The notes under the pieces: model-generated
Seen by the model: only the letters and a program-made list of their open reading frames with translations
Told to the model about the DNA's origin: nothing
Database searches by the model: none
Translations under genes and position numbers: made by a program
Part shown: in pieces, positions 1-7,159 of the stretch
Position numbering within the stretch: position 1 is the stretch's first letter
How the letters are laid out: the number at the start of each line of letters is the position of its first letter
DNA from: Chloroflexota bacterium
Lineage (GTDB): Bacteria > Chloroflexota > Anaerolineae > Promineifilales > Promineifilaceae
Assembly: GCA_008501785.1 (NCBI GenBank)
Contig: QQUD01000293.1
Location: 1-7,159 of the forward strand
Length of the DNA: 7,159 nt
Reading direction: 5' to 3'

Positions 1-801
1 GATGAGGAAATACCAATACAAATTAGTCTGCCATTGTGGACAAAATCCAAGCAAAAAGGTGTTGATTTTGGAAATAGTGAGTGGAAAATTAAACCAAAAT
101 CCAAGCACAACCATGCCGGTAATGAGCATGCCCCATCGAGCCTGTTTTTTGTACTTAAATTTGCGCTGATGGGCGAAATAGCCAACGGTATACAGTGCCA
201 ATACTGTGATTTCGGGAATACCAAAAACAATGTTGGGTGGTGGCGGTGTTTCCACCGCAAATCCTAATTGCTGATTGGCAATGCGCTGTGTTCCTTGCAG
301 GGTTGCCTCTGCTAAAGCACGCGCCGTGTAGGTTGCGCCGGTAATGCCGTCTAAATCTTCATTGAGCTGGAACCCATCGCTGTATGTTTTGCCCATTAAT
401 TGCTCGGTGAATCCTGCATTCATGACGCGCTCGAAGAATGATGGGGTTTCGACGTGGTCGGCAACGGCCGTTTCCACCACATTCCCTTCCAAATCTAGCC
501 CGACTGCAACCACAATTGGTCCACCGTAGCCAACAGCCTCACCAAGCGTCACATAGCCAATTAGTGTTTCTTCAGATTGGTTGGCATATGCAGCAAACGT
601 ATCGCTATTTACATGTTCAAACCGATCCGCTTCCGGCATAGCTGCTTCAATTGCAGGCATGGTGTCACTGGATTCCAGCAAAGAACCCGCAATCCAGGCA
701 ATGACAATCGTGGCAATGGCCGCAATTGCTAACCAGCGCTCCCATCGCTTCGTCCGGTCTCGTTTACTCATCTTGAGTTTGATTTGATTTTTCTCACTCA
801 A
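1..801 (-). CDS. rdhC: RdhC/NosR-like membrane flavoprotein, 3' end cut by window edge
   Basis: 267 residues are visible and the frame is still open at base 1. I chose a TTG start at 801 because GGGAGG stands nine bases upstream; an in-frame ATG at 771 has no such site. In order: a cytoplasmic N-terminus rich in Lys/Arg, a first membrane span (about 23-42), an extracytoplasmic FMN-binding domain (about 60-180), and further spans at about 192-210 and 224-245. The domain ends in DGITGAT (151-157), which fits the Dxx[ST]GA[ST] motif where ApbE-type transferases attach FMN, so Thr157 is the likely flavinylated residue. This layout matches the N-terminal half of RdhC/PceC and NosR/NirI proteins. 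The later spans and the CX3CP cysteine motifs expected in that family would lie outside the window. Family members are linked to quinol electron transfer or maturation of the partner enzyme; the role here is inferred from nearby rdhAB. A NosR-like protein of another pathway is possible but less likely in this context. Confidence 0.82.
   Translation of the reverse strand, partial: MSEKNQIKLKMSKRDRTKRWERWLAIAAIATIVIAWIAGSLLESSDTMPAIEAAMPEADRFEHVNSDTFAAYANQSEETLIGYVTLGEAVGYGGPIVVAVGLDLEGNVVETAVADHVETPSFFERVMNAGFTEQLMGKTYSDGFQLNEDLDGITGATYTARALAEATLQGTQRIANQQLGFAVETPPPPNIVFGIPEITVLALYTVGYFAHQRKFKYKKQARWGMLITGMVVLGFWFNFPLTISKINTFLLGFCPQWQTNLYWYFLI
463..472. repeat. Iterated palindrome AACGGCCGTT, copy 1
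   Basis: Perfect 10-bp palindrome inside the rdhC-like gene, read there as part of ETAVA. One of four copies in the window. Confidence 0.8.
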
Positions 802-810
802 TCCGTTGCG

Positions 811-816
811 CCTCCC
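811..816 (-). promoter_or_regulatory. Ribosome binding site deciding the TTG start of the rdhC-like gene
   Basis: GGGAGG on the minus strand, nine bases before TTG (799-801). It is the best Shine-Dalgarno match near this gene and argues for the TTG start rather than the internal ATG ten codons later. Confidence 0.7.
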
Positions 817-834
817 ACATTAACAAAATTTATG

Positions 835-1074
835 TTACTCATTCCCATCTTCCCCGATTGGTGCTGAAAACATTTCCTCCCGTTCTTCTGCGGTCAGAGT
901 TGGGAGGGGTGTTGGTTCTGCTTCTTGAATTGTCGTAACTGATTGGTTTTGTGATTCGAGTTGAGTGGATAGATTATTGGTTAATTCCACGAGTATCATA
1001 CCCACACATAGCAAAACAAAAACCATCAGGATAATGTCAATGATTTGTTTGTTTTTACTTTTAGATTGTGCCAT
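835..1074 (-). CDS. Small single-span membrane protein of unknown function
   Basis: 79 residues; not a family I recognise. A Lys/Ser-rich cytoplasmic start (1-9) is followed by one hydrophobic span (about 11-31, IIDIILMVFVLLCVGMILVEL less its last residue). A polar tail follows that is rich in Gln, Thr and Pro and ends in an acidic stretch. By the positive-inside rule the tail faces out. The ATG at 1074 has only a weak upstream GGA, so translation may be modest. It lies 33 bp upstream of the rdhC-like gene on the same strand and 56 bp after the TPR gene, so the three may share a transcript. A small subunit or anchor partner of the rdhC-like protein is a guess from position alone. The tail shows no cysteines or known motif. 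Confidence 0.65.
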   Translation of the reverse strand: MAQSKSKNKQIIDIILMVFVLLCVGMILVELTNNLSTQLESQNQSVTTIQEAEPTPLPTLTAEEREEMFSAPIGEDGNE

Positions 1075-1098
1075 TATGCTTTGTCCATTTGCGATTCT

Positions 1099-1141
1099 AC
1101 GAGTTCTCTCGTTTACACGAGTTCTCTCGTTTACACGAGTT
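1099..1141. repeat. Tandem 18-bp repeat with internal hairpins at the end of the TPR gene
   Basis: Unit ACGAGTTCTCTCGTTTAC occurs twice in full (1099-1116 and 1117-1134), followed by seven more matching bases (1135-1141). Each unit holds the inverted repeat ACGAG-ttct-CTCGT. The array starts in the TPR gene's last codons and stop (TAA at 1131-1133) and runs into the gap, so the sequence around the stop codon is itself repeated downstream. Confidence 0.85.
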
Positions 1142-2459
1142 TAGCCAGTAGATTTCGTGCTTTGTCTGCTTGTTCGGTCAGGTTGGCTTTGGTGTAGATG
1201 GAAACGGCCGTTTCACAAAAACCCCGCGCCTTCTCCACATCACCCTTATCCGCAAAAGCCATTGCCAACATCACCAACTGTTCGCCTTCCAGGTCTAGCA
1301 AATCGTGCTTTCGCGCCAGCTCAAGGGCAAGTTCATGATGTCGAACGGCTTCATCTGTCCGATTTAACTCAGCCAAAATGATGCCAATTCGCCCTAACAA
1401 ATAAGCTTTATCAGTCATACGCTGCAACCGCTGCGTGACCATCAATGCCTGCTGATAAGTTCCCAGAGATTTCTCAAGTTCATTGGTGATCATATAAGAT
1501 TCACCCAAGCCCAACAGCAGATTAATCTCTTGGTTCCGATCTTTGGATGTCAGGGCAAATTCAAGTGCTTCCATGGTTGCGCGACGCGCTTTTGTAACAA
1601 GATTTAGCCGATAAAATGCGGCAATCAGGTGTTCATAAAAGAGATTGGCGATTGCATCGTTCGTTTCTTTTGCTAACGCGACACCTTTTTGCGCGTAGGC
1701 AACAACTTTCTCGTTGTCATTCAGTTTGGTATGCACATTTATGAGATGGCGATACGCTTGCAGCTCGGCCTTTTTGTTGCCAATTTCATGCACAAAAGTG
1801 ACAACATCATCAAAAATTTGCCCCGCTTCTAAAAACTCCCCTTTCCACTCCAGCAAAGCACCTAAATTGCCATGAAAACCAATTTCTGCTTGCCGATCCT
1901 CCAATTCGCGGGCCAGGTCACGGGCTTGCACAAAATAAGCTTCTGCTTTGTCAGCAGAGGCAATGGTCATGCAATAATTGCCAAACGCACCGGTGACATT
2001 CATTTGTCGCCGCTTATCGCCAATTTTTTCGGCAATCTCCAACGCGGCATTAAGTTTTTCCAGTGCAATCACCTCTTCCCCAGAATCAATCAGAATCTGT
2101 CCTTGTGTTGCCAGGGCATCACATTGAACCCGCTCATTCTGTTTTGCCACTGCTAAATTCTCGATTTTGTGAGCTGTTTTAAAGGCTTGTGGGTGTTGAT
2201 CGGTGGATTGATAAGCCATTGTTTTAATTCCCAGACAATGTACCTGTAAAATAAAATCGTCAAGCTCTTTGAAAATTTGGTCAACCTCATTGAAACTTCT
2301 CAGACCTTCTTTGAACTTGTTCACGCTGAAAAGTGCGAATCCCAAATTTGCCGCAGCCACACTGATTTTGCGTGGATCACCTTCGTCACGCATATCTGCC
2401 AAATATTTTCGAGCCTGGGTTAACCGCAGGCTTGCTTTTTTTCGAGACTTGTCTGTCAT
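1131..2459 (-). CDS. Soluble tetratricopeptide-repeat protein
   Basis: 442 residues made almost entirely of paired amphipathic helices. I count about nine TPR-like units of 35-40 residues, recognisable from the spaced G/A/Y and closing A..A... pattern, for example NLGFALFSVNKFKEGLRSF, NLGALLEWKGEFLEAGQIF and GRIGIILAELNRTDEAVRHH. There is no signal peptide, membrane span, ATPase or DNA-binding domain, so it should be a cytoplasmic protein-protein interaction scaffold. The start is supported by AGAGGAG eleven bases upstream. It follows the SRPBCC gene by 48 bp. The repeats resemble the helical mid-region of MalT/LuxR regulators such as the one at 5631, so a free-standing relative of such a sensor domain is one possibility. 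A chaperone-like helper for RdhA is another. Neither is shown by the sequence. Confidence 0.85.
   Translation of the reverse strand: MTDKSRKKASLRLTQARKYLADMRDEGDPRKISVAAANLGFALFSVNKFKEGLRSFNEVDQIFKELDDFILQVHCLGIKTMAYQSTDQHPQAFKTAHKIENLAVAKQNERVQCDALATQGQILIDSGEEVIALEKLNAALEIAEKIGDKRRQMNVTGAFGNYCMTIASADKAEAYFVQARDLARELEDRQAEIGFHGNLGALLEWKGEFLEAGQIFDDVVTFVHEIGNKKAELQAYRHLINVHTKLNDNEKVVAYAQKGVALAKETNDAIANLFYEHLIAAFYRLNLVTKARRATMEALEFALTSKDRNQEINLLLGLGESYMITNELEKSLGTYQQALMVTQRLQRMTDKAYLLGRIGIILAELNRTDEAVRHHELALELARKHDLLDLEGEQLVMLAMAFADKGDVEKARGFCETAVSIYTKANLTEQADKARNLLAKLV
1203..1212. repeat. Iterated palindrome AACGGCCGTT, copy 2
   Basis: Inside the TPR gene, read as part of ETAVS. Here the palindrome extends to 14 bp (GAAACGGCCGTTTC, 1201-1214). 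Confidence 0.8.
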
Positions 2460-2483
2460 TGGGGAATTATCTCCTCTGTAAGT

Positions 2484-2512
2484 CGTAGGACAAAACAGCG
2501 TCTTGACCTACG
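2484..2512. other. Inverted repeat in the SRPBCC-TPR gap
   Basis: CGTAGG (2484-2489) and CCTACG (2507-2512) form a six-pair stem that can extend inward by three more pairs after one mismatch. It covers the stop codon of the SRPBCC gene and is not followed by a T-run, so it does not look like an ordinary terminator. It may be an RNA processing or stabilising hairpin between two co-transcribed genes. Confidence 0.4.
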
Positions 2513-2987
2513 GGTTTTCATCCGTGGTGCGTTTTGTGTCCATAATCAGAGATTGCAGCCGTGTCAAAAAGTTTTGCTCTTTCCAAAAAGCCTGATACTT
2601 GTGATAGACTGATGCTTGAATATTTTCGGATAAATATTTAAAGCCATCATGTTTTAAGGATAATTTTGTGCCTGATTCTACTACTTCCAGCTCAATGGTT
2701 ACCATTGTATTGTTGAACCAAGTTTCCCCATAATCATCACGCTCAATCCAGGTAAACGCAAATTTTTTCTTGGGAATAACCAAACCAATTTCACCTTCAA
2801 CAAGGCAATTCTCTCCGTCAAAGGATAATGGGATTTCTATGTTACCCCCCTCATAAACATCGATCACAAATTCATTGGCGTGGAGCCACTGTTTCATCTT
2901 TTCTTCATTCAACAAGAATTCCCACACCTTATCGATAGCGGTTGGGATTGTGATTTCTTGAATTATTTGGAGGGGTTTGCTGTTCAT
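2508..2987 (-). CDS. SRPBCC (AHSA1/START-like) domain protein
   Basis: 159 residues, one complete SRPBCC fold. The N-terminal strand QEITIPTAIDKVWEFLLNEE is followed by KMKQWL, a strand-rich middle with the typical Trp/Phe pattern (FAFTWIERDDYGETW), and a C-terminal helix (about 125-150) that closes the ligand cavity. Such domains bind hydrophobic ligands or act as Hsp90-cochaperone-like modules; the ligand cannot be read from sequence. It has no export signal. No good Shine-Dalgarno stands before the ATG at 2987, which lies only 27 bases after the terminator hairpin, so it probably depends on read-through or a very short leader. Its position between rdhAB and the TPR and rdhC-like genes makes an accessory role possible but unproven. 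Confidence 0.85.
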   Translation of the reverse strand: MNSKPLQIIQEITIPTAIDKVWEFLLNEEKMKQWLHANEFVIDVYEGGNIEIPLSFDGENCLVEGEIGLVIPKKKFAFTWIERDDYGETWFNNTMVTIELEVVESGTKLSLKHDGFKYLSENIQASVYHKYQAFWKEQNFLTRLQSLIMDTKRTTDENP

Positions 2988-3014
2988 AATTTGAATTAAT
3001 TCGATTTTACAAAA

Positions 3015-3048
3015 GAGTAGAGACGTAGGTTGCTACGTCTCTACTTTT
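3015..3048 (-). terminator. Strong hairpin terminator after rdhB
   Basis: GTAGAGACGTAG (3017-3028), loop GTTG, then CTACGTCTCTAC (3033-3044): a perfect 12-pair stem, 13 with A3016-T3045. Read on the minus strand, the stem is followed by CTCTTTT. The plus strand also has TTTT after the stem, so it could act in both directions. It ends the rdhAB transcript, at least in part. Confidence 0.75.
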
Positions 3049-3109
3049 ACTTTCTACATTTCAAAAAAAGAATGCATCTTTTCTTGATTGAAGCTTGCCA
3101 ATATTTGAG

Positions 3110-3403
3110 CTATGCTGTCTTTGGTTTGGCAGATAGTAGCCGCCAAAGGCCGACGCCCAAAATTAGGGAGACAAATAGCCCTAATAATGCTAGTTTCCAG
3201 CCAGCGCTTGCTTCATATTCACCGATGAGCGTACCCCAGGCCAGGAAACTCATGTTAAAGATGAAGTACCAAACAATCGCCAGCAGCCATTTCCACCAGT
3301 TAAGTTCCCATTTGCGATCCTCGGCAAAGGTTTTGAAACCTACTCCAACAAGGATAGCAATCATTCCCATCAAAAACCAGAATACATTACCTTCAAAAAA
3401 CAT
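3110..3403 (-). CDS. rdhB: Reductive dehalogenase membrane anchor RdhB
   Basis: 97 residues, the usual size for RdhB. Three hydrophobic spans (about 7-25, 38-60 and 70-90) carry the family's signature features: a W-rich NWWKWLL stretch before the second span and GEYEASAGW (61-69) before the third. RdhB binds the exported RdhA and holds it on the outer face of the cytoplasmic membrane. I chose the ATG at 3403 over an in-frame TTG at 3427 because AAGGAG (3411-3416) stands seven bases upstream of the ATG and itself lies within the longer reading. One base separates this start from the rdhA stop, so the two are almost surely translationally coupled. Confidence 0.93.
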   Translation of the reverse strand: MFFEGNVFWFLMGMIAILVGVGFKTFAEDRKWELNWWKWLLAIVWYFIFNMSFLAWGTLIGEYEASAGWKLALLGLFVSLILGVGLWRLLSAKPKTA

Positions 3404-3404
3404 C

Positions 3405-4922
3405 TTAACTCTCCTTTGGATCGACAATATCTATGTCAAGATAGGTTTCGCCTTGCAGCCAGAATGGTTCTTTACGGTATTGGGCGAATTTTCCACCTTC
3501 GGCAATGCGGCGATATTCTAGCGCTTCGGGGGCATCGAAGAAGTTCTTTTGCATCCAAAGCAAGGTGCTGCTGACTGTTCCTGTTGGGTCACGGGGGTCG
3601 AGTTCACGGGATAGATCATGCAGCCAGTTGTCTTTACGGCTGTAGGGGCAGTTGGCTACGCACAAACGACAGCCCATGCCACCCATTGACTCACGCCAGA
3701 AGTTGTAGCAGGCCCCATTGTTGATGTACCAATGCTCATAACCGCGAATTTCTAGCCCATCGTAGTTGTCGGCAAATGAGATTGCGCCTGAGGGGCATTG
3801 TTCAGCACAAATTTTACATTTTTGGCAGAATTCTTTGACACCGAATTCGATGGGTTTGTCTTCGGCAAGTTCTAGGTTGGTGAGGATAACGGCCGTTCTA
3901 CAGTTACTACCCGTTTCCGGCGTAATCACATAGCCAGCACGACAATGTTCACCCAGACCAGCATCCACAGCATAAGGTGGAACCACAACATCATAGCCAT
4001 TGTTTGGTGTACTGGCTCGTGTTGCATACCCCATCTTCTTCAGTGCGCCTTCAATGCGGATACCTGCGATGGAAACACGAGCATACGCATCTTGACTGGT
4101 GGACATTTGCGGACTGCCAAGCACCTCGTCCCATTCCATTGGCACGCCAATCACGATTGCAGATTTATAATGTGCTGGCAATTTAGAATGATCATATTCT
4201 GGTGGGCAGCCACGCCATCCATCCCCATAATGCCAATCAATATTTGGTTTTGTAATCCGCACCAATGTGGCACCAAACCGGTGAGAAATCTCTTTCACAA
4301 ATTCAGCCGCTAATTCAGGACTCTTGAAAGGCAGTTTCTCACCAAGCGGTTGCCCGCCACCCCGACCAATTGTTGTGAAATCATATTCTTCGGGCGGTGA
4401 ATCAGGACTTACTGGCCGAATTGCACCAAACCCTGCTTCGTAAACATCAATCAGGTGATAATAGGCACCATACTGCTTACGATCTTCTCCATTGTTAGGA
4501 ATTGTCTCAGTGAACGTTTTATAATCCCAATCCAGGCGTTCAGGGAATTTTTTGTAAAATTCCACCATTGGCGGCGGGAATCCCATATCTTCGATGGGAT
4601 CCTCGATTGTCCATGTTGGATTAGCTTCGAGCGCTTTTTGGAAAGTCGCAACACGCCCAAAAACATAGTCAGTCATGTGACTAGGGCGACGAACTTCCCC
4701 AACTGGTTTAAAGACAGGGCCTTCTACTTCAAAGGGTTTGCGGTTAAAAAACTGCGTACCTGGATTATTCGATTCCCAGCCAGTGTAAGTTTCCGAAGAT
4801 GATCCGGCAGCAATACCGCCTGCAACAAACCCGCCAGCTTGAACGGCAAGTCCAGCCAGACCGGCGATCTTCAGAAAATCACGGCGTGAGACACCATTTT
4901 TTGTATCTTGTGCGTCACTCAT
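3405..4922 (-). CDS. rdhA: Corrinoid-dependent reductive dehalogenase, catalytic subunit
   Basis: 505 residues, the normal RdhA size. A Tat signal with SRRDFLK at 12-18 and a hydrophobic Ala/Gly stretch (19-40) directs export of the folded, cofactor-loaded enzyme. The middle holds the cobalamin-binding nitroreductase-like fold, including the conserved AGLGEHCRAGYVITPETG block (321-338). The C-terminal part binds two [4Fe-4S] clusters: CX2CX2CX3CP (Cys366, 369, 372, 376) and the shortened CX12CX2CX3CP form (Cys405, 418, 421, 425) typical of respiratory RdhA. By spacing alone, Tyr280, Asn307 and Arg342 are candidates for the Tyr-Asn-Arg set of PceA. The family removes halogens reductively as the terminal step of respiration; the substrate cannot be predicted. 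The ATG at 4922 has AGAGGAG eight bases upstream; a longer in-frame reading to 4994 would start inside the riboswitch region and is unlikely. Tat signal plus rdhB exclude the cytosolic relative QueG. Confidence 0.96.
   Translation of the reverse strand: MSDAQDTKNGVSRRDFLKIAGLAGLAVQAGGFVAGGIAAGSSSETYTGWESNNPGTQFFNRKPFEVEGPVFKPVGEVRRPSHMTDYVFGRVATFQKALEANPTWTIEDPIEDMGFPPPMVEFYKKFPERLDWDYKTFTETIPNNGEDRKQYGAYYHLIDVYEAGFGAIRPVSPDSPPEEYDFTTIGRGGGQPLGEKLPFKSPELAAEFVKEISHRFGATLVRITKPNIDWHYGDGWRGCPPEYDHSKLPAHYKSAIVIGVPMEWDEVLGSPQMSTSQDAYARVSIAGIRIEGALKKMGYATRASTPNNGYDVVVPPYAVDAGLGEHCRAGYVITPETGSNCRTAVILTNLELAEDKPIEFGVKEFCQKCKICAEQCPSGAISFADNYDGLEIRGYEHWYINNGACYNFWRESMGGMGCRLCVANCPYSRKDNWLHDLSRELDPRDPTGTVSSTLLWMQKNFFDAPEALEYRRIAEGGKFAQYRKEPFWLQGETYLDIDIVDPKES
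3411..3416 (-). promoter_or_regulatory. Ribosome binding site deciding the rdhB start
   Basis: AAGGAG on the minus strand, inside the last codons of rdhA and seven bases from the ATG at 3403. It fixes the 97-residue form of RdhB. Confidence 0.8.
3888..3897. repeat. Iterated palindrome AACGGCCGTT, copy 3
   Basis: Inside rdhA, spanning the codons for Arg342-Thr-Ala-Val345. Confidence 0.8.
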
Positions 4923-4939
4923 AGGTAAATCTCCTCTGT

Positions 4940-4975
4940 AAAATAAAAAAACACAGCTTCGTCCGAGTTGTGTTT
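4940..4975 (-). terminator. Terminator-like hairpin in the rdhA leader (expression platform)
   Basis: On the minus strand AAACACA (4975-4969) pairs with TGTGTTT (4955-4949), with further Ts down to 4945 and TTTT at 4943-4940. It ends just before the rdhA Shine-Dalgarno (CTCCTCT on plus, 4931-4937) and after the riboswitch, the position expected of an attenuator. The stem is AT-rich, so termination would be partial or conditional. An upstream AAAAAACAC (5003-4995) can pair with GTGTTTTTT (4954-4946) and compete with it. Confidence 0.65.
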
Positions 4976-5000
4976 CCAATCCACGAGAAATCACGTGTTT

Positions 5001-5080
5001 TTTGAGTTCCTGGCTTTCCCTGCTTACGCAAAGGTTTACAGTTGCGGGACAGCGCCGGAATCACACCGGCTTCCTCGAAA
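5001..5080 (-). promoter_or_regulatory. Cobalamin riboswitch in the rdhA leader
   Basis: Minus-strand RNA shows the conserved core: GGAAGCCGGTG (5074-5064), the stem GCCGG/CCGGC (5070-5066 with 5058-5054), GCTGTCCCGCAACTGTAA (5053-5036) and a B12-box, AAGCCAGGAACTC (5016-5004). Between core and B12-box is one hairpin, CTTTGC-GTAA-GCAGGG (5033-5018), with a GNRA-type loop. The outer stem can form from TTT-c-GAG (5080-5074) and CTCAAA (5006-5001). The short peripheral part suggests the compact cobalamin class II rather than the large adenosylcobalamin type. A small hairpin CACG/CGTG (4997-4994 with 4985-4982) follows and may be the kissing-loop arm. The element lies between the rdhA promoter and a terminator-like hairpin. 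Confidence 0.9.
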
Positions 5081-5096
5081 GGGCAATAGCTTTCTA

Positions 5097-5102
5097 ATAT
5101 TA
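5097..5102 (-). promoter_or_regulatory. Candidate -10 box for rdhA
   Basis: TAATAT on the minus strand, in an A/T-rich stretch directly before the riboswitch; transcription would start near 5090. No good -35 box is seen 17 bp upstream (ATTTCC), which fits an activator-dependent promoter using the operators at 5128 and 5173. The same hexamer stands at nearly the same distance from the matching operator upstream of the small regulator. Confidence 0.5.
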
Positions 5103-5127
5103 TTTTAAGGAATGAGAAGGGAAATTG

Positions 5128-5146
5128 AAACACCCCAATGTGTGAT
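5128..5146. promoter_or_regulatory. Operator-like site A (proximal, rdhA promoter)
   Basis: Read on the minus strand: ATCACACATTGGGGTGTTT. It keeps the left half-site ATCACAC and a degenerate right half. It matches site C at 5559 in 15 of 19 bases and lies 25 bp before the candidate -10 box. Confidence 0.65.
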
Positions 5147-5172
5147 TTTGTTAATTATTTCACAAAGTAGTT

Positions 5173-5190
5173 GTCACACTTTTGTGTGAT
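5173..5190. promoter_or_regulatory. Operator-like site B (distal, rdhA promoter)
   Basis: GTCACACTTTTGTGTGAT, a near-perfect inverted repeat (TCACAC-N4-GTGTGA). It differs from site D at 5604 in one base. It lies exactly 44 bp upstream of site A and overlaps the last codons and stop (TGA at 5174-5176) of the small regulator. Confidence 0.75.
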
Positions 5191-5452
5191 AAGGCTTTAG
5201 ATTTTGAGCAGCAAGAACAGCTTGTGTTCGATTGCGAACATTCAGTTTTTTGTAGATGCGCTTGATATGGGTTTTGAGGGTGTTTTCTGAAATGGAGAGC
5301 AGGGCAGCGATTTCTGCATACGAATGCCCTTTTGCTAGCAAGGCGATGACTTCTTGTTCCTTTGGAGACAGGTGAATGTTGTCACAACGCGCTTGATCTG
5401 ACGTTTTCTCTTTTTGGATATCTTTTGGCTGACCTGACTCAAGGTTGGTCAT
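5174..5452 (-). CDS. Stand-alone LuxR-type DNA-binding protein
   Basis: 92 residues. After a polar, probably disordered start (1-26) comes a LuxR/NarL-type helix-turn-helix domain (about 28-85): LSPKEQEVIALL, then GHSYAEIAALLSIS, then the recognition helix NTLKTHIKRIYKKL (57-70) and NRTQAVLAAQ. There is no receiver, ATPase or ligand domain, so it can only bind DNA unless it pairs with another protein, perhaps the large regulator encoded just upstream. The domain is very close to that protein's C-terminus (shared NTLKTHIKRIY and QAVLAAQ), pointing to local duplication. The ATG at 5452 has AAGGA ten bases before it. Its promoter carries the same operator pair as rdhA, which suggests autoregulation and control of rdhA. 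The last codons (HTKV-stop) are read from operator B, as if the coding frame had run into regulatory DNA. Confidence 0.88.
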   Translation of the reverse strand: MTNLESGQPKDIQKEKTSDQARCDNIHLSPKEQEVIALLAKGHSYAEIAALLSISENTLKTHIKRIYKKLNVRNRTQAVLAAQNLKPYHTKV

Positions 5453-5468
5453 AAGTTGATTATCCTTT

Positions 5469-5506
5469 TCAGAGTTGATGTGAGAAGGTTTGAGTAGAAA
5501 CTCTGA
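5469..5506 (-). promoter_or_regulatory. Inverted repeat in the leader of the small regulator
   Basis: TCAGAGTT (5506-5499 on the minus strand) pairs with AACTCTGA (5476-5469), eight pairs with a 22-base loop. The right arm touches the AAAAGGA ribosome binding region, so the hairpin could limit translation of the small regulator. No T-run follows. Confidence 0.45.
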
Positions 5507-5524
5507 CTGTCATTTCGATTCCAG

Positions 5525-5530
5525 ATATTA
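5525..5530 (-). promoter_or_regulatory. Candidate -10 box for the small regulator
   Basis: TAATAT on the minus strand, 28 bp after operator site C, giving a start near 5518 and a leader of about 65 bases. The -35 region (CACACA) is poor. The upstream TATAAAAT at 5533-5540 is an alternative -10. Confidence 0.45.
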
Positions 5531-5558
5531 AATTTTATAAAAAGTGGTGTGTGTTTTT

Positions 5559-5577
5559 AAACACCCTTTTGTGTTAT
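5559..5577. promoter_or_regulatory. Operator-like site C (proximal, small-regulator promoter)
   Basis: Read on the minus strand: ATAACACAAAAGGGTGTTT; it contains the inverted repeat AACAC-N6-GTGTT. It is the counterpart of site A, and the two also share ACAAA immediately upstream. Confidence 0.65.
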
Positions 5578-5603
5578 TTTGTAAAAAATTTGGCAATCGA
5601 GAT

Positions 5604-5621
5604 GTCACACATTTGTGTGAT
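5604..5621. promoter_or_regulatory. Operator-like site D (distal, small-regulator promoter)
   Basis: GTCACACATTTGTGTGAT, inverted repeat TCACAC-N4-GTGTGA, one base different from site B and exactly 44 bp upstream of site C. It starts ten bases after the stop of the large regulator. Confidence 0.75.
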
Positions 5622-5630
5622 AGAGGGATT

Positions 5631-7159
5631 TTATAGTAAACCAGATTCTTGGGCAGCGAGTACAGCCTGAACACGATTGTGAACGTCTAGCTTGCTGTAG
5701 ATGCGTTTGATGTGTGTTTTGAGCGTGTTGTCTGTGATGGTAAGTGCTTTTGTCATTTGCGCGTAGGAGAGGCCTTGGGATAGCAGTTGCAATATCTCGG
5801 TTTCGCGGGGAGTGAGAGGATTGGGGATAGATTCTTTGGTGGATTGCATTTGGGTGGGGAATGCGTTGAGCAGTTTTTGCAGGTAAGTAGTTGAGGGGGT
5901 GGTGGAGCGAGAACGGCCGTTTCCATCCCATACCATTTGTAACACCCGCTGCATATTTTCCCCCTCATCAACAAACGTGCGAATATAGCCTTCAGTTTCC
6001 GTTTGTTGCAGTAAACTGCGCACTTGTGAAAGCGCAAACTCCATTTCACCTAGCTGGACAAACAGATTAATCTGCATCGCGGACAGCTTGATCTGATCTC
6101 GAACCCGATTGTCTTTACGGGCCAACGATTGCAGCAATTGCAATTGCTGCATGCATTCAGCTTCTTTGCCACAAGCCATCCAGATGCGAGCCACAATCAG
6201 CCATTCAACCTGTTGCAAAGCTGACACCTCTGGATGCGATTGCACAAAAGATTCTGCCCACAGTAAAGCGTTTTCTTGTTTTCCTTCAAACAAATCGAGA
6301 CGGGCGCGCAGTGCCGCCAGTCTCGACATGACGAGTGGAGGAGAATCATATTCATCAGCTACTTTTTCAATATGGGCAAATTTATCGTCGATTTCAATTG
6401 GATAGTTGCAGCAAGTTTTTAGCTTAACCAAGGCTGCTAATCCAAACAACAGTCGGTCAACTGACATGCTGCTTTCCGCGAGCCGGTTTCCATCGATAAT
6501 CAATTTTTCTGCGGCATCCATATCATTCCATTCATAATGCAGCAGCCCTGGCCCTAATAGGATTTGTGAGAATGTGTTTCCCTCATGCAAGCCACGGGCG
6601 CGAGCCTCATCGTGAAACTCTTGATATTTGGCAGCAGCCAATTTTAGTTCGCCACGGGCAATAATCACTTCGCCTAAATAGCTGTTAAAAATTAGCGCGA
6701 CCGACCAAGGGTCTTCCTTTTCTATTTCTATCAGACCAAGTGCATCTACCAAATAAGAATAAGCTGAATCAATATCCCCCAATGCTAAACAGGCTGAACC
6801 AAAATGCCCCCAGGCGATGCCTCTCATTAAGGCGGCGCTTTCTGGCAAAATGGTTAATGCTTTTCGATTCAGCTCCTGCACACGTTTGGCATCAAATGTT
6901 GTATGCAAGGTTAAGGCAGCCAATAGTGGGTAAGCATAAGCATGATCGGTTGGAATAGGTTCATCTGTTATTGTCTCTGGTGGATTGATGCCAATTTTTC
7001 GCAGAAAAGTAGAGACTTTATTGAAATTGCTGTAATAAAATTCCGCCAAGGTGTAATGGATCCATAAAAACGTGCTTGTGCGCACTAATTCAATGGGAAT
7101 CTGATTTGTCCATCGGATGAAAGATGTGCGTTGCCGGCTGTCTTGTACGCTGAATCCAA
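5631..7159 (-). CDS. MalT-like LuxR-family regulator, 5' end cut by window edge
   Basis: 508 complete residues are visible; the frame has no stop up to base 7159, so the GTG at 7085 is not needed as a start and the gene continues outside. The visible part is a long array of TPR-like helical pairs (about 30-390), the family motif EGYIRTFVDEGENM, and a C-terminal LuxR helix-turn-helix in the last 61 residues (LTPRETEILQLL, NTLKTHIKRIYSKL, NRVQAVLAAQ). In MalT-type (LAL/STAND) regulators of about 900 residues, an N-terminal nucleotide-binding domain and the helical repeats sense an inducer and drive oligomerisation; that domain would be outside. It is the most upstream gene and, with the small regulator, the best candidate for binding the operators. 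The inducer could be a halogenated compound, but nothing in the sequence shows it. Confidence 0.88.
   Translation of the reverse strand, partial: GFSVQDSRQRTSFIRWTNQIPIELVRTSTFLWIHYTLAEFYYSNFNKVSTFLRKIGINPPETITDEPIPTDHAYAYPLLAALTLHTTFDAKRVQELNRKALTILPESAALMRGIAWGHFGSACLALGDIDSAYSYLVDALGLIEIEKEDPWSVALIFNSYLGEVIIARGELKLAAAKYQEFHDEARARGLHEGNTFSQILLGPGLLHYEWNDMDAAEKLIIDGNRLAESSMSVDRLLFGLAALVKLKTCCNYPIEIDDKFAHIEKVADEYDSPPLVMSRLAALRARLDLFEGKQENALLWAESFVQSHPEVSALQQVEWLIVARIWMACGKEAECMQQLQLLQSLARKDNRVRDQIKLSAMQINLFVQLGEMEFALSQVRSLLQQTETEGYIRTFVDEGENMQRVLQMVWDGNGRSRSTTPSTTYLQKLLNAFPTQMQSTKESIPNPLTPRETEILQLLSQGLSYAQMTKALTITDNTLKTHIKRIYSKLDVHNRVQAVLAAQESGLL
5912..5921. repeat. Iterated palindrome AACGGCCGTT, copy 4
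   Basis: Inside the large regulator gene, read in a different codon phase (Asn-Gly-Arg) from the other three copies. Confidence 0.8.

Follow-up and report, generated by a model that had tools for sequence, protein, structure and literature searches.

A cobalamin riboswitch ahead of a Chloroflexota reductive dehalogenase gene, with a leader layout suggestive of activation

We describe a cobalamin riboswitch lying directly ahead of rdhA, the gene of a reductive dehalogenase, in a stretch of 7,159 nucleotides from a Chloroflexota bacterium (GenBank assembly GCA_008501785.1, contig QQUD01000293.1, positions 1 to 7,159; hereafter the window). As far as the literature found goes, this is a new target for the class, and the leader is built like the rare activating kind: its layout points to rdhA being switched on by B12, opposite to nearly all known B12 switches. 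Folding calculations predict that corrinoid prevents termination and so licenses RdhA, a reading to which we give a probability of about 0.6. Corrinoid is needed for organohalide respiration, and many bacteria must take it up; a cis switch tied to the presence of the cofactor would explain coordination without a protein regulator. The original prediction, made from the letters of the window, proposed the riboswitch and gave no direction of control; activation is argued in the present analysis.

The riboswitch and the genes of the window

The features to which the text refers are the following.

Positions 5004 to 5076, minus strand: cobalamin (corrinoid) riboswitch aptamer, compact form, from RF00174 match and core-pair covariation
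Positions 5045 to 5049, minus strand: L5, UCCCG, kissing-loop strand of the aptamer, equal to the L5 consensus in PMC10653944
Positions 5004 to 5016, minus strand: B12 box and 3' strand of P3 (AAGCCAGGAACUC), from the RF00174 alignment
Positions 4982 to 4997, minus strand: alternative hairpin CACG...CGUG covering part of L13, from the lowest-energy pre-terminator fold
Positions 4970 to 4994, minus strand: P13 with L13 CGUGGA (4980-4985), from complementarity to L5; proposed antiterminator when corrinoid-bound
Positions 4940 to 4977, minus strand: intrinsic terminator, stem GGAAACACA / UGUGUUUUU and U tract, -7.3 kcal/mol
Positions 4931 to 4937, minus strand: Shine-Dalgarno sequence of rdhA, AGAGGAG
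Positions 3405 to 4922, minus strand: rdhA, reductive dehalogenase of 505 aa with TAT motif SRRDFLK, from TIGR02486, PceA and NpRdhA matches
Positions 3110 to 3427, minus strand: open reading frame for a small protein at the place of rdhB, probably starting at 3403, hydrophobic by eye
Positions 3016 to 3045, minus strand: terminator-like hairpin 3' of the rdhB-like frame, 13-bp stem with T-rich tail
Positions 1 to 801, minus strand: incomplete FMN-binding membrane protein, RdhC/NosR-like, PF04205 at 47.7 bits

The Rfam scan of the window gave a single match at gathering level, RF00174 (Cobalamin), on the minus strand from 5076 to 5004, which scores 40.3 bits against a gathering threshold of 31.5 (E 1.2e-7), covers positions 45-169 of the 189 of the model and ends 81 nt upstream of the ATG at 4922. 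The B12 box reads AAGCCAGGAACTC (5016-5004). Core and B12 box had been recognized in the original prediction, which passes the covariance-model check that it had proposed, and its range, 4940-5090, fits aptamer and terminator together. The outer stem that it had also claimed is present, but corresponds to P3 (GAG/CUC), P1 lying outside the Rfam match.

Over eight leaders of the same type, the window's included, the core helices as drawn pair in 89.8% of alignment cells, and 6 of the 11 core pairs are altered on both sides, a count found in 0 of 500 shuffles. Among five covariation measures, the count of further pair types does not exceed that of the shuffles (181/500), and the two P6 pairs are kept in just 56% of cells. 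With a B12 box, covarying core helices and a score above the curated threshold, minus strand 5076-5004 is confirmed at the sequence level as a cobalamin riboswitch aptamer, predicted to bind corrinoid.

The gene that follows is, by sequence, that of a TAT-type reductive dehalogenase, as originally assigned, and dehalogenation is its predicted activity. Its product exceeds the TIGR02486 cut-off by a narrow margin (164.1 bits against 160.35), matches PceA (4uqu, E 6.7e-31) and NpRdhA (4ras, E 7.1e-31), and combines a TAT signal with 4Fe-4S motifs (Fer4_7 at 366-427). Y280 and R342, which do not vary among the 24 aligned sequences (the window's being one of them), align with Y246 and R305 of PceA, which we take to be its catalytic tyrosine and arginine; N272 of PceA aligns with P306. 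A corrinoid and two 4Fe-4S sites are expected. In Pfam the protein had no PF13486 match at E 0.01, and its PF10518 score, 20.0, is below the cut-off of 22.7.

Profile searches gave no family match for the rdhB-like frame, which has a counterpart of comparable size and place in a related locus, L002. An operon had been proposed, an extent that is not borne out, since the 13-bp hairpin at 3045-3016, between the rdhB-like and AHSA1 frames, may end the riboswitch-controlled unit; beyond it lie the AHSA1, TPR and FMN-binding genes, and the L002 counterpart of the latter additionally carries Fer4_5. Upstream of rdhA are two LuxR-type frames. A 67-nt direct repeat (78%; 5125-5191 and 5556-5622), containing TCACAC-N4-GTGTGA palindromes, precedes both the rdhA leader and a LuxR-type frame, and is a possible operator of LuxR/MalT-like regulators.

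P13 and terminator in the window

In corrinoid riboswitches, a kissing loop formed by L5, of consensus UCCCG, stabilises P13 (PMC10653944). In the window, L13, sought through its complementarity to L5, reads CG(U)GGA and forms 5 of 5 pairs with UCCCG around one bulged U. The terminator-like hairpin of the original prediction was found at 4977-4940, followed by UUUUUUUAUUUU, though it is weak (-7.3 kcal/mol) and absent from the pattern-scan terminator list for the window. P13 and the 5' arm of this hairpin overlap at 4970-4977, 8 nt, so that 8 of the 9 arm nucleotides are common to both, and the two helices are mutually exclusive through the P13 3' strand and the terminator 5' strand, in the manner of the activating cobT type. 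Before termination, the lowest-energy fold of the leader differs from P13, which fits a switch and equally a P13 never formed; we infer for the CACG...CGUG hairpin of that fold the role of a corrinoid-free state. A promoter had also been claimed, and is unconfirmed, because the scan of the window gave no sigma-70-like promoter for the minus strand in the sequence immediately 5' of the aptamer.

Position of P13 relative to the terminator in rdhA and control leaders

The comparison started from 56 riboswitch loci, comprising 8 rdhA-linked leaders, 30 controls (other riboswitch leaders from the same or related genomes) and 18 loci excluded because the L5 pattern was unmatched or matched off the aptamer. 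The first gene was scanned in 26 of the 30 controls, none being found by rule for L014, L015, L021 and L115; it encodes a BtuF-like binding protein in 24, FecCD in one, and has no assignment in one. Both kinds of leader occur within G001, G002, G003, G008 and G009, the first control gene being BtuF-like in G002, G008 and G009 and without assignment in G003.

With loops and arms placed by hand in 32 leaders (L105, L106 and L107 were left out, the arm being unmatched), the distance from P13 to the terminator ranges from -4 to +5 nt in all eight rdhA leaders, which are of the transcriptional type, and from 24 to 66 nt in 24 of 24 controls; these counts rest on our own reading, because a fixed terminator rule failed in places. 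P13 lies inside the terminator arm in the window, in G001 and in G002 rdhA2, and beside the terminator, at +1 to +5 nt, in G002 rdhA1, G003, G008 and both G009 leaders. Under the fixed rule the gap is at most 1 nt in 7 of 8 rdhA leaders, with the overlap overstated in four by overlong hairpins (G003, G008 and both from G009), and 17-65 nt in 25 of 26 controls, L012 being scored as overlapping (-3) and four of the 30 (L015, L110, L114, L021) having no value. The rule failed for the window, where it took a hairpin within the coding region (gap 56). All eight leaders of the window's type have, between aptamer and first start codon, a hairpin followed by a T-rich tail, which is short in G002 rdhA1 and G009 rdhA1.

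The number of nucleotides shared by P13 and terminator is unusual in the window (1/300 shuffles) and unremarkable in the other seven leaders. No leader is unusual in the stability of its extended P13 compared with shuffles of the 5' segment (window, 21/300), a test which therefore does not show selection for the extended stem by energy in these eight.

Variant loops keep their match: UGCCG stands with CG(A)GCA in G009, UUCCG with CG(A)GAA in G001, and UCGCG with CGC(U)GA in three leaders of a second rdhA subfamily, described below, while the fit is 4 of 5 in G008 and G009 rdhA2. Of 17 variant L5 sequences, 11 suit their own L13 better than the consensus does and 2 worse, and the L5/L13 swap test gave 0 of 10,000 shuffles; it is partly circular, because most L13 were located through the L5 complement, 13 of 43 being set by hand.

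Recurrence across Chloroflexota

The recurrence in other rdhA leaders, which the original prediction had proposed to check, is borne out in other Chloroflexota genomes. Relatives of the window's rdhA were sought in one genome per species, with 24 aligned sequences and two peptide patterns, resulting in nine loci. The riboswitch stands ahead of these close relatives in 3 of 9 genomes over threshold (L002, L003 and L009, at gathering score and directly ahead of rdhA) and in two below it, L001 at 26.0 bits and L008 at 26.3, the latter not listed in a second search; covariance searches of the loci found none ahead of rdhA in L004-L006 or L007. In L008 (6001-7520) the rdhA frame is lost some way past the TAT signal, through either an assembly error or a pseudogene. 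The subfamily is rare: a draw of 400 genomes from the phylum yielded one carrier, and no further genome turned up in three families, of which 152, 24 and 46 genomes were searched. Another, distant rdhA led by a separate riboswitch is present in both L002 and L009, with a small frame in between in the case of L002.

In the order of L009, a survey of 400 genomes, scoring at most five rdhA candidates per genome, found rdhA at E 1e-35 in 76. Riboswitch searches of these, 68 under stricter filters and 8 in other searches, identified 9 of the 76 in which a listed rdhA directly follows a riboswitch (G002, G008, sub-threshold, G009, G435, G606, G667, G692, G697 and G725). With G001, sub-threshold, and G003, the arrangement is thus found in 11 Chloroflexota genomes besides the window, more distant rdhA included. 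In the draw from the whole phylum 26 of 400 genomes have rdhA, and among the 57 riboswitch matches in the 25 other than G003 none lies ahead of an rdhA among those listed, compared by eye within 1.5 kb on the same strand. The riboswitch of G498, considered as a further case, was rejected, as by eye it precedes a lipoprotein-like gene.

The arrangement is more than chance. Some rdhA genes closely related to riboswitch-led ones, in G761 and G536, have no riboswitch at E 3, and in a tree of 40 RdhA rows, where rows with no riboswitch detected were scored as lacking it, the riboswitch label changes at least five times on well-supported branches; the association was therefore gained or lost several times.

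Some observations concern the surroundings of these loci. In L136 the order, by eye from translated frames, is rdhA, rdhB, multihaem cytochrome, TatC, cupredoxin-like, riboswitch, rdhA, rdhB and NosR-like. Repeated GGACAnnTGTCC palindromes precede both riboswitch-rdhA leaders of L002 (about 5600-5780 and 3400-3560), alongside a frame, 2757-3392, that is TetR-like by eye. Past the rdhA1 terminator of the same locus and before 6001, GAGGAGGCCAGATACTC resembles both ends of another cobalamin aptamer, since deleted, possibly a tandem riboswitch remnant. Equal-scoring riboswitch pairs about 29-31 kb apart in G272:C1 and G057:C1 suggest large duplications.

Six genomes have a riboswitch-led rdhA of another subfamily (B), with a different leader design: no terminator was found ahead of the rdhA start in any of the six, and the hairpin that comes after P13 covers the Shine-Dalgarno sequence, as CUCCU/AGGAG in five leaders and with another stretch in G435. 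Simple folding gave no clear sign for Shine-Dalgarno access in these leaders; they resemble the btuB platform that PMC10653944 describes, and on that ground may repress.

Direction of control

The sign was evaluated by folding each transcript up to the 3' arm of its terminator, with P13 forced, and reading the pairing of the terminator 5' arm. In 19 of 24 controls, forcing P13 freed the arm by more than 0.1, and in one it had the opposite effect; among the eight rdhA leaders, arm pairing rose by more than 0.1 in five and fell by as much in none. The window shows the largest rise of the eight, +0.60, which stays between +0.54 and +0.63 when three arm definitions and three trims are tried, and is +0.10 to +0.18 under a fourth definition. 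In the other seven the sign is weak or depends on arm definition: G003, G002 rdhA2 and G009 rdhA1 are negative under some definitions, G003 down to -0.28, and in G001 two of three definitions give a value close to zero. Taken together, the eight leaders establish the geometry firmly, but not the sign. For the window we predict activation, because forcing P13 sequesters its terminator arm under most definitions.

On this model, when corrinoid is lacking L13 would be partly hidden in the CACG/CGUG hairpin, the terminator would form and rdhA would be off. Binding of corrinoid would let L5 dock on L13 and keep P13 closed, making GGAAACAC unavailable to the terminator; polymerase would then read through into rdhA and the rdhB-like gene, and the corrinoid-dependent enzyme would be made solely when its cofactor is present.

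A short gap need not by itself mean activation, because among 38 riboswitches P13-to-terminator distances run from 0 to 82 nt, with one activating riboswitch described (PMC10653944). The same source has all corrinoid riboswitches before that of Alkalihalobacillus halodurans cobT as repressing, so that an ordinary repressing switch, in which corrinoid favours the terminator and lowers rdhA, has to be considered; in that case the RdhA-like protein would act in corrinoid acquisition or be required most under corrinoid scarcity. P13 and terminator can indeed coexist in G009 rdhA1, and the rdhA of L002 shares one island with a riboswitch-led BtuF-like gene. In the window, however, the nucleotides shared by P13 and terminator leave no room for an antiterminator of the metE type, made of the P13 3' strand and the terminator 5' side, and the coupling has the sign opposite to that of the 19 controls, which makes repression rather unlikely.

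It is improbable that the aptamer is real and the switch inert or decayed, rdhA being mainly under the upstream LuxR-type regulators: the weak terminator and the two LuxR-type frames with palindromic TCACAC-GTGTGA repeats would suit this, but the core is conserved and covaries over eight leaders, and L5 and L13 of the window are complementary. Least probable appears translational control, in which the Shine-Dalgarno sequence would pair with the 3' strand of P3 or elsewhere in the leader, and the terminator-like hairpin would be incidental; the six subfamily-B leaders offer a parallel, yet the hairpin and T-rich tail recur in all the leaders of the window's type, if short-tailed in two, and the Shine-Dalgarno sequence of the window sits past the hairpin.

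Activation by corrinoid thus remains our preferred reading for the window. Its extension, that natural cis ON corrinoid riboswitches were acquired several times ahead of Chloroflexota rdhA and license a cofactor-dependent respiratory enzyme, is put forward tentatively, at somewhat under even odds. If true, ON riboswitches, now known from one described example, would form a natural class that recurs, and the rdhA switches would be opposite in sign to the btuF-type switches of the same genomes.

Comparison with known systems

Literature searches, covering subscription papers in part, found no cobalamin riboswitch ahead of rdhA among the matches listed, in agreement with the original prediction, which knew of no described case. 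The nearest in position is the rdhA motif WRC-34-1, which lies immediately before reductive dehalogenase genes and is set apart in its description (PMC11109978) as a separate, weak orphan riboswitch candidate with 18 examples, mostly from Dehalococcoides. Riboswitches of unstated kind upstream of tceA and S-layer genes are mentioned in a remark in PMC5102406. Dehalobacter restrictus is likewise an organohalide respirer with cobalamin riboswitches, but the five described in PMC4285132 precede corrinoid synthesis or transport operons, not rdhA.

The repressing RF00174 riboswitches (btuF, cob, metE) share with the window the aptamer core, B12 box, L5 UCCCG and L13; they differ in that P13 stands apart from the terminator in the controls analysed here. 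The metE switch represses, its P13 promoting the terminator, and a separate antiterminator uses the P13 3' strand (PMC10653944). A simple rule is suggested, by which P13 overlapping the terminator or standing apart from it would predict the sign from sequence, and which could be applied to many leaders.

EutX/Rli55 of Enterococcus and Listeria similarly ties the expression of a B12-dependent pathway to the presence of AdoCbl, and AdoCbl-dependent eut induction through EutX is the nearest functional precedent, in trans: a small RNA sponges EutV (PMC5821096), while the switch of the window would act in cis. The closest mechanistic likeness is to A. halodurans cobT, the first corrinoid riboswitch described as activating, where P13 and terminator exclude each other, the kissing loop keeps P13 closed, and the P13 3' strand is the terminator 5' strand (PMC10653944). 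There P13 acts as antiterminator, the role proposed for P13 of the window; the cobT switch precedes a biosynthesis gene and has cobinamide as best ligand, in contrast to the gene of a corrinoid-dependent enzyme in the window. The activating reading would add a natural ON branch to a riboswitch class otherwise described as repressing.
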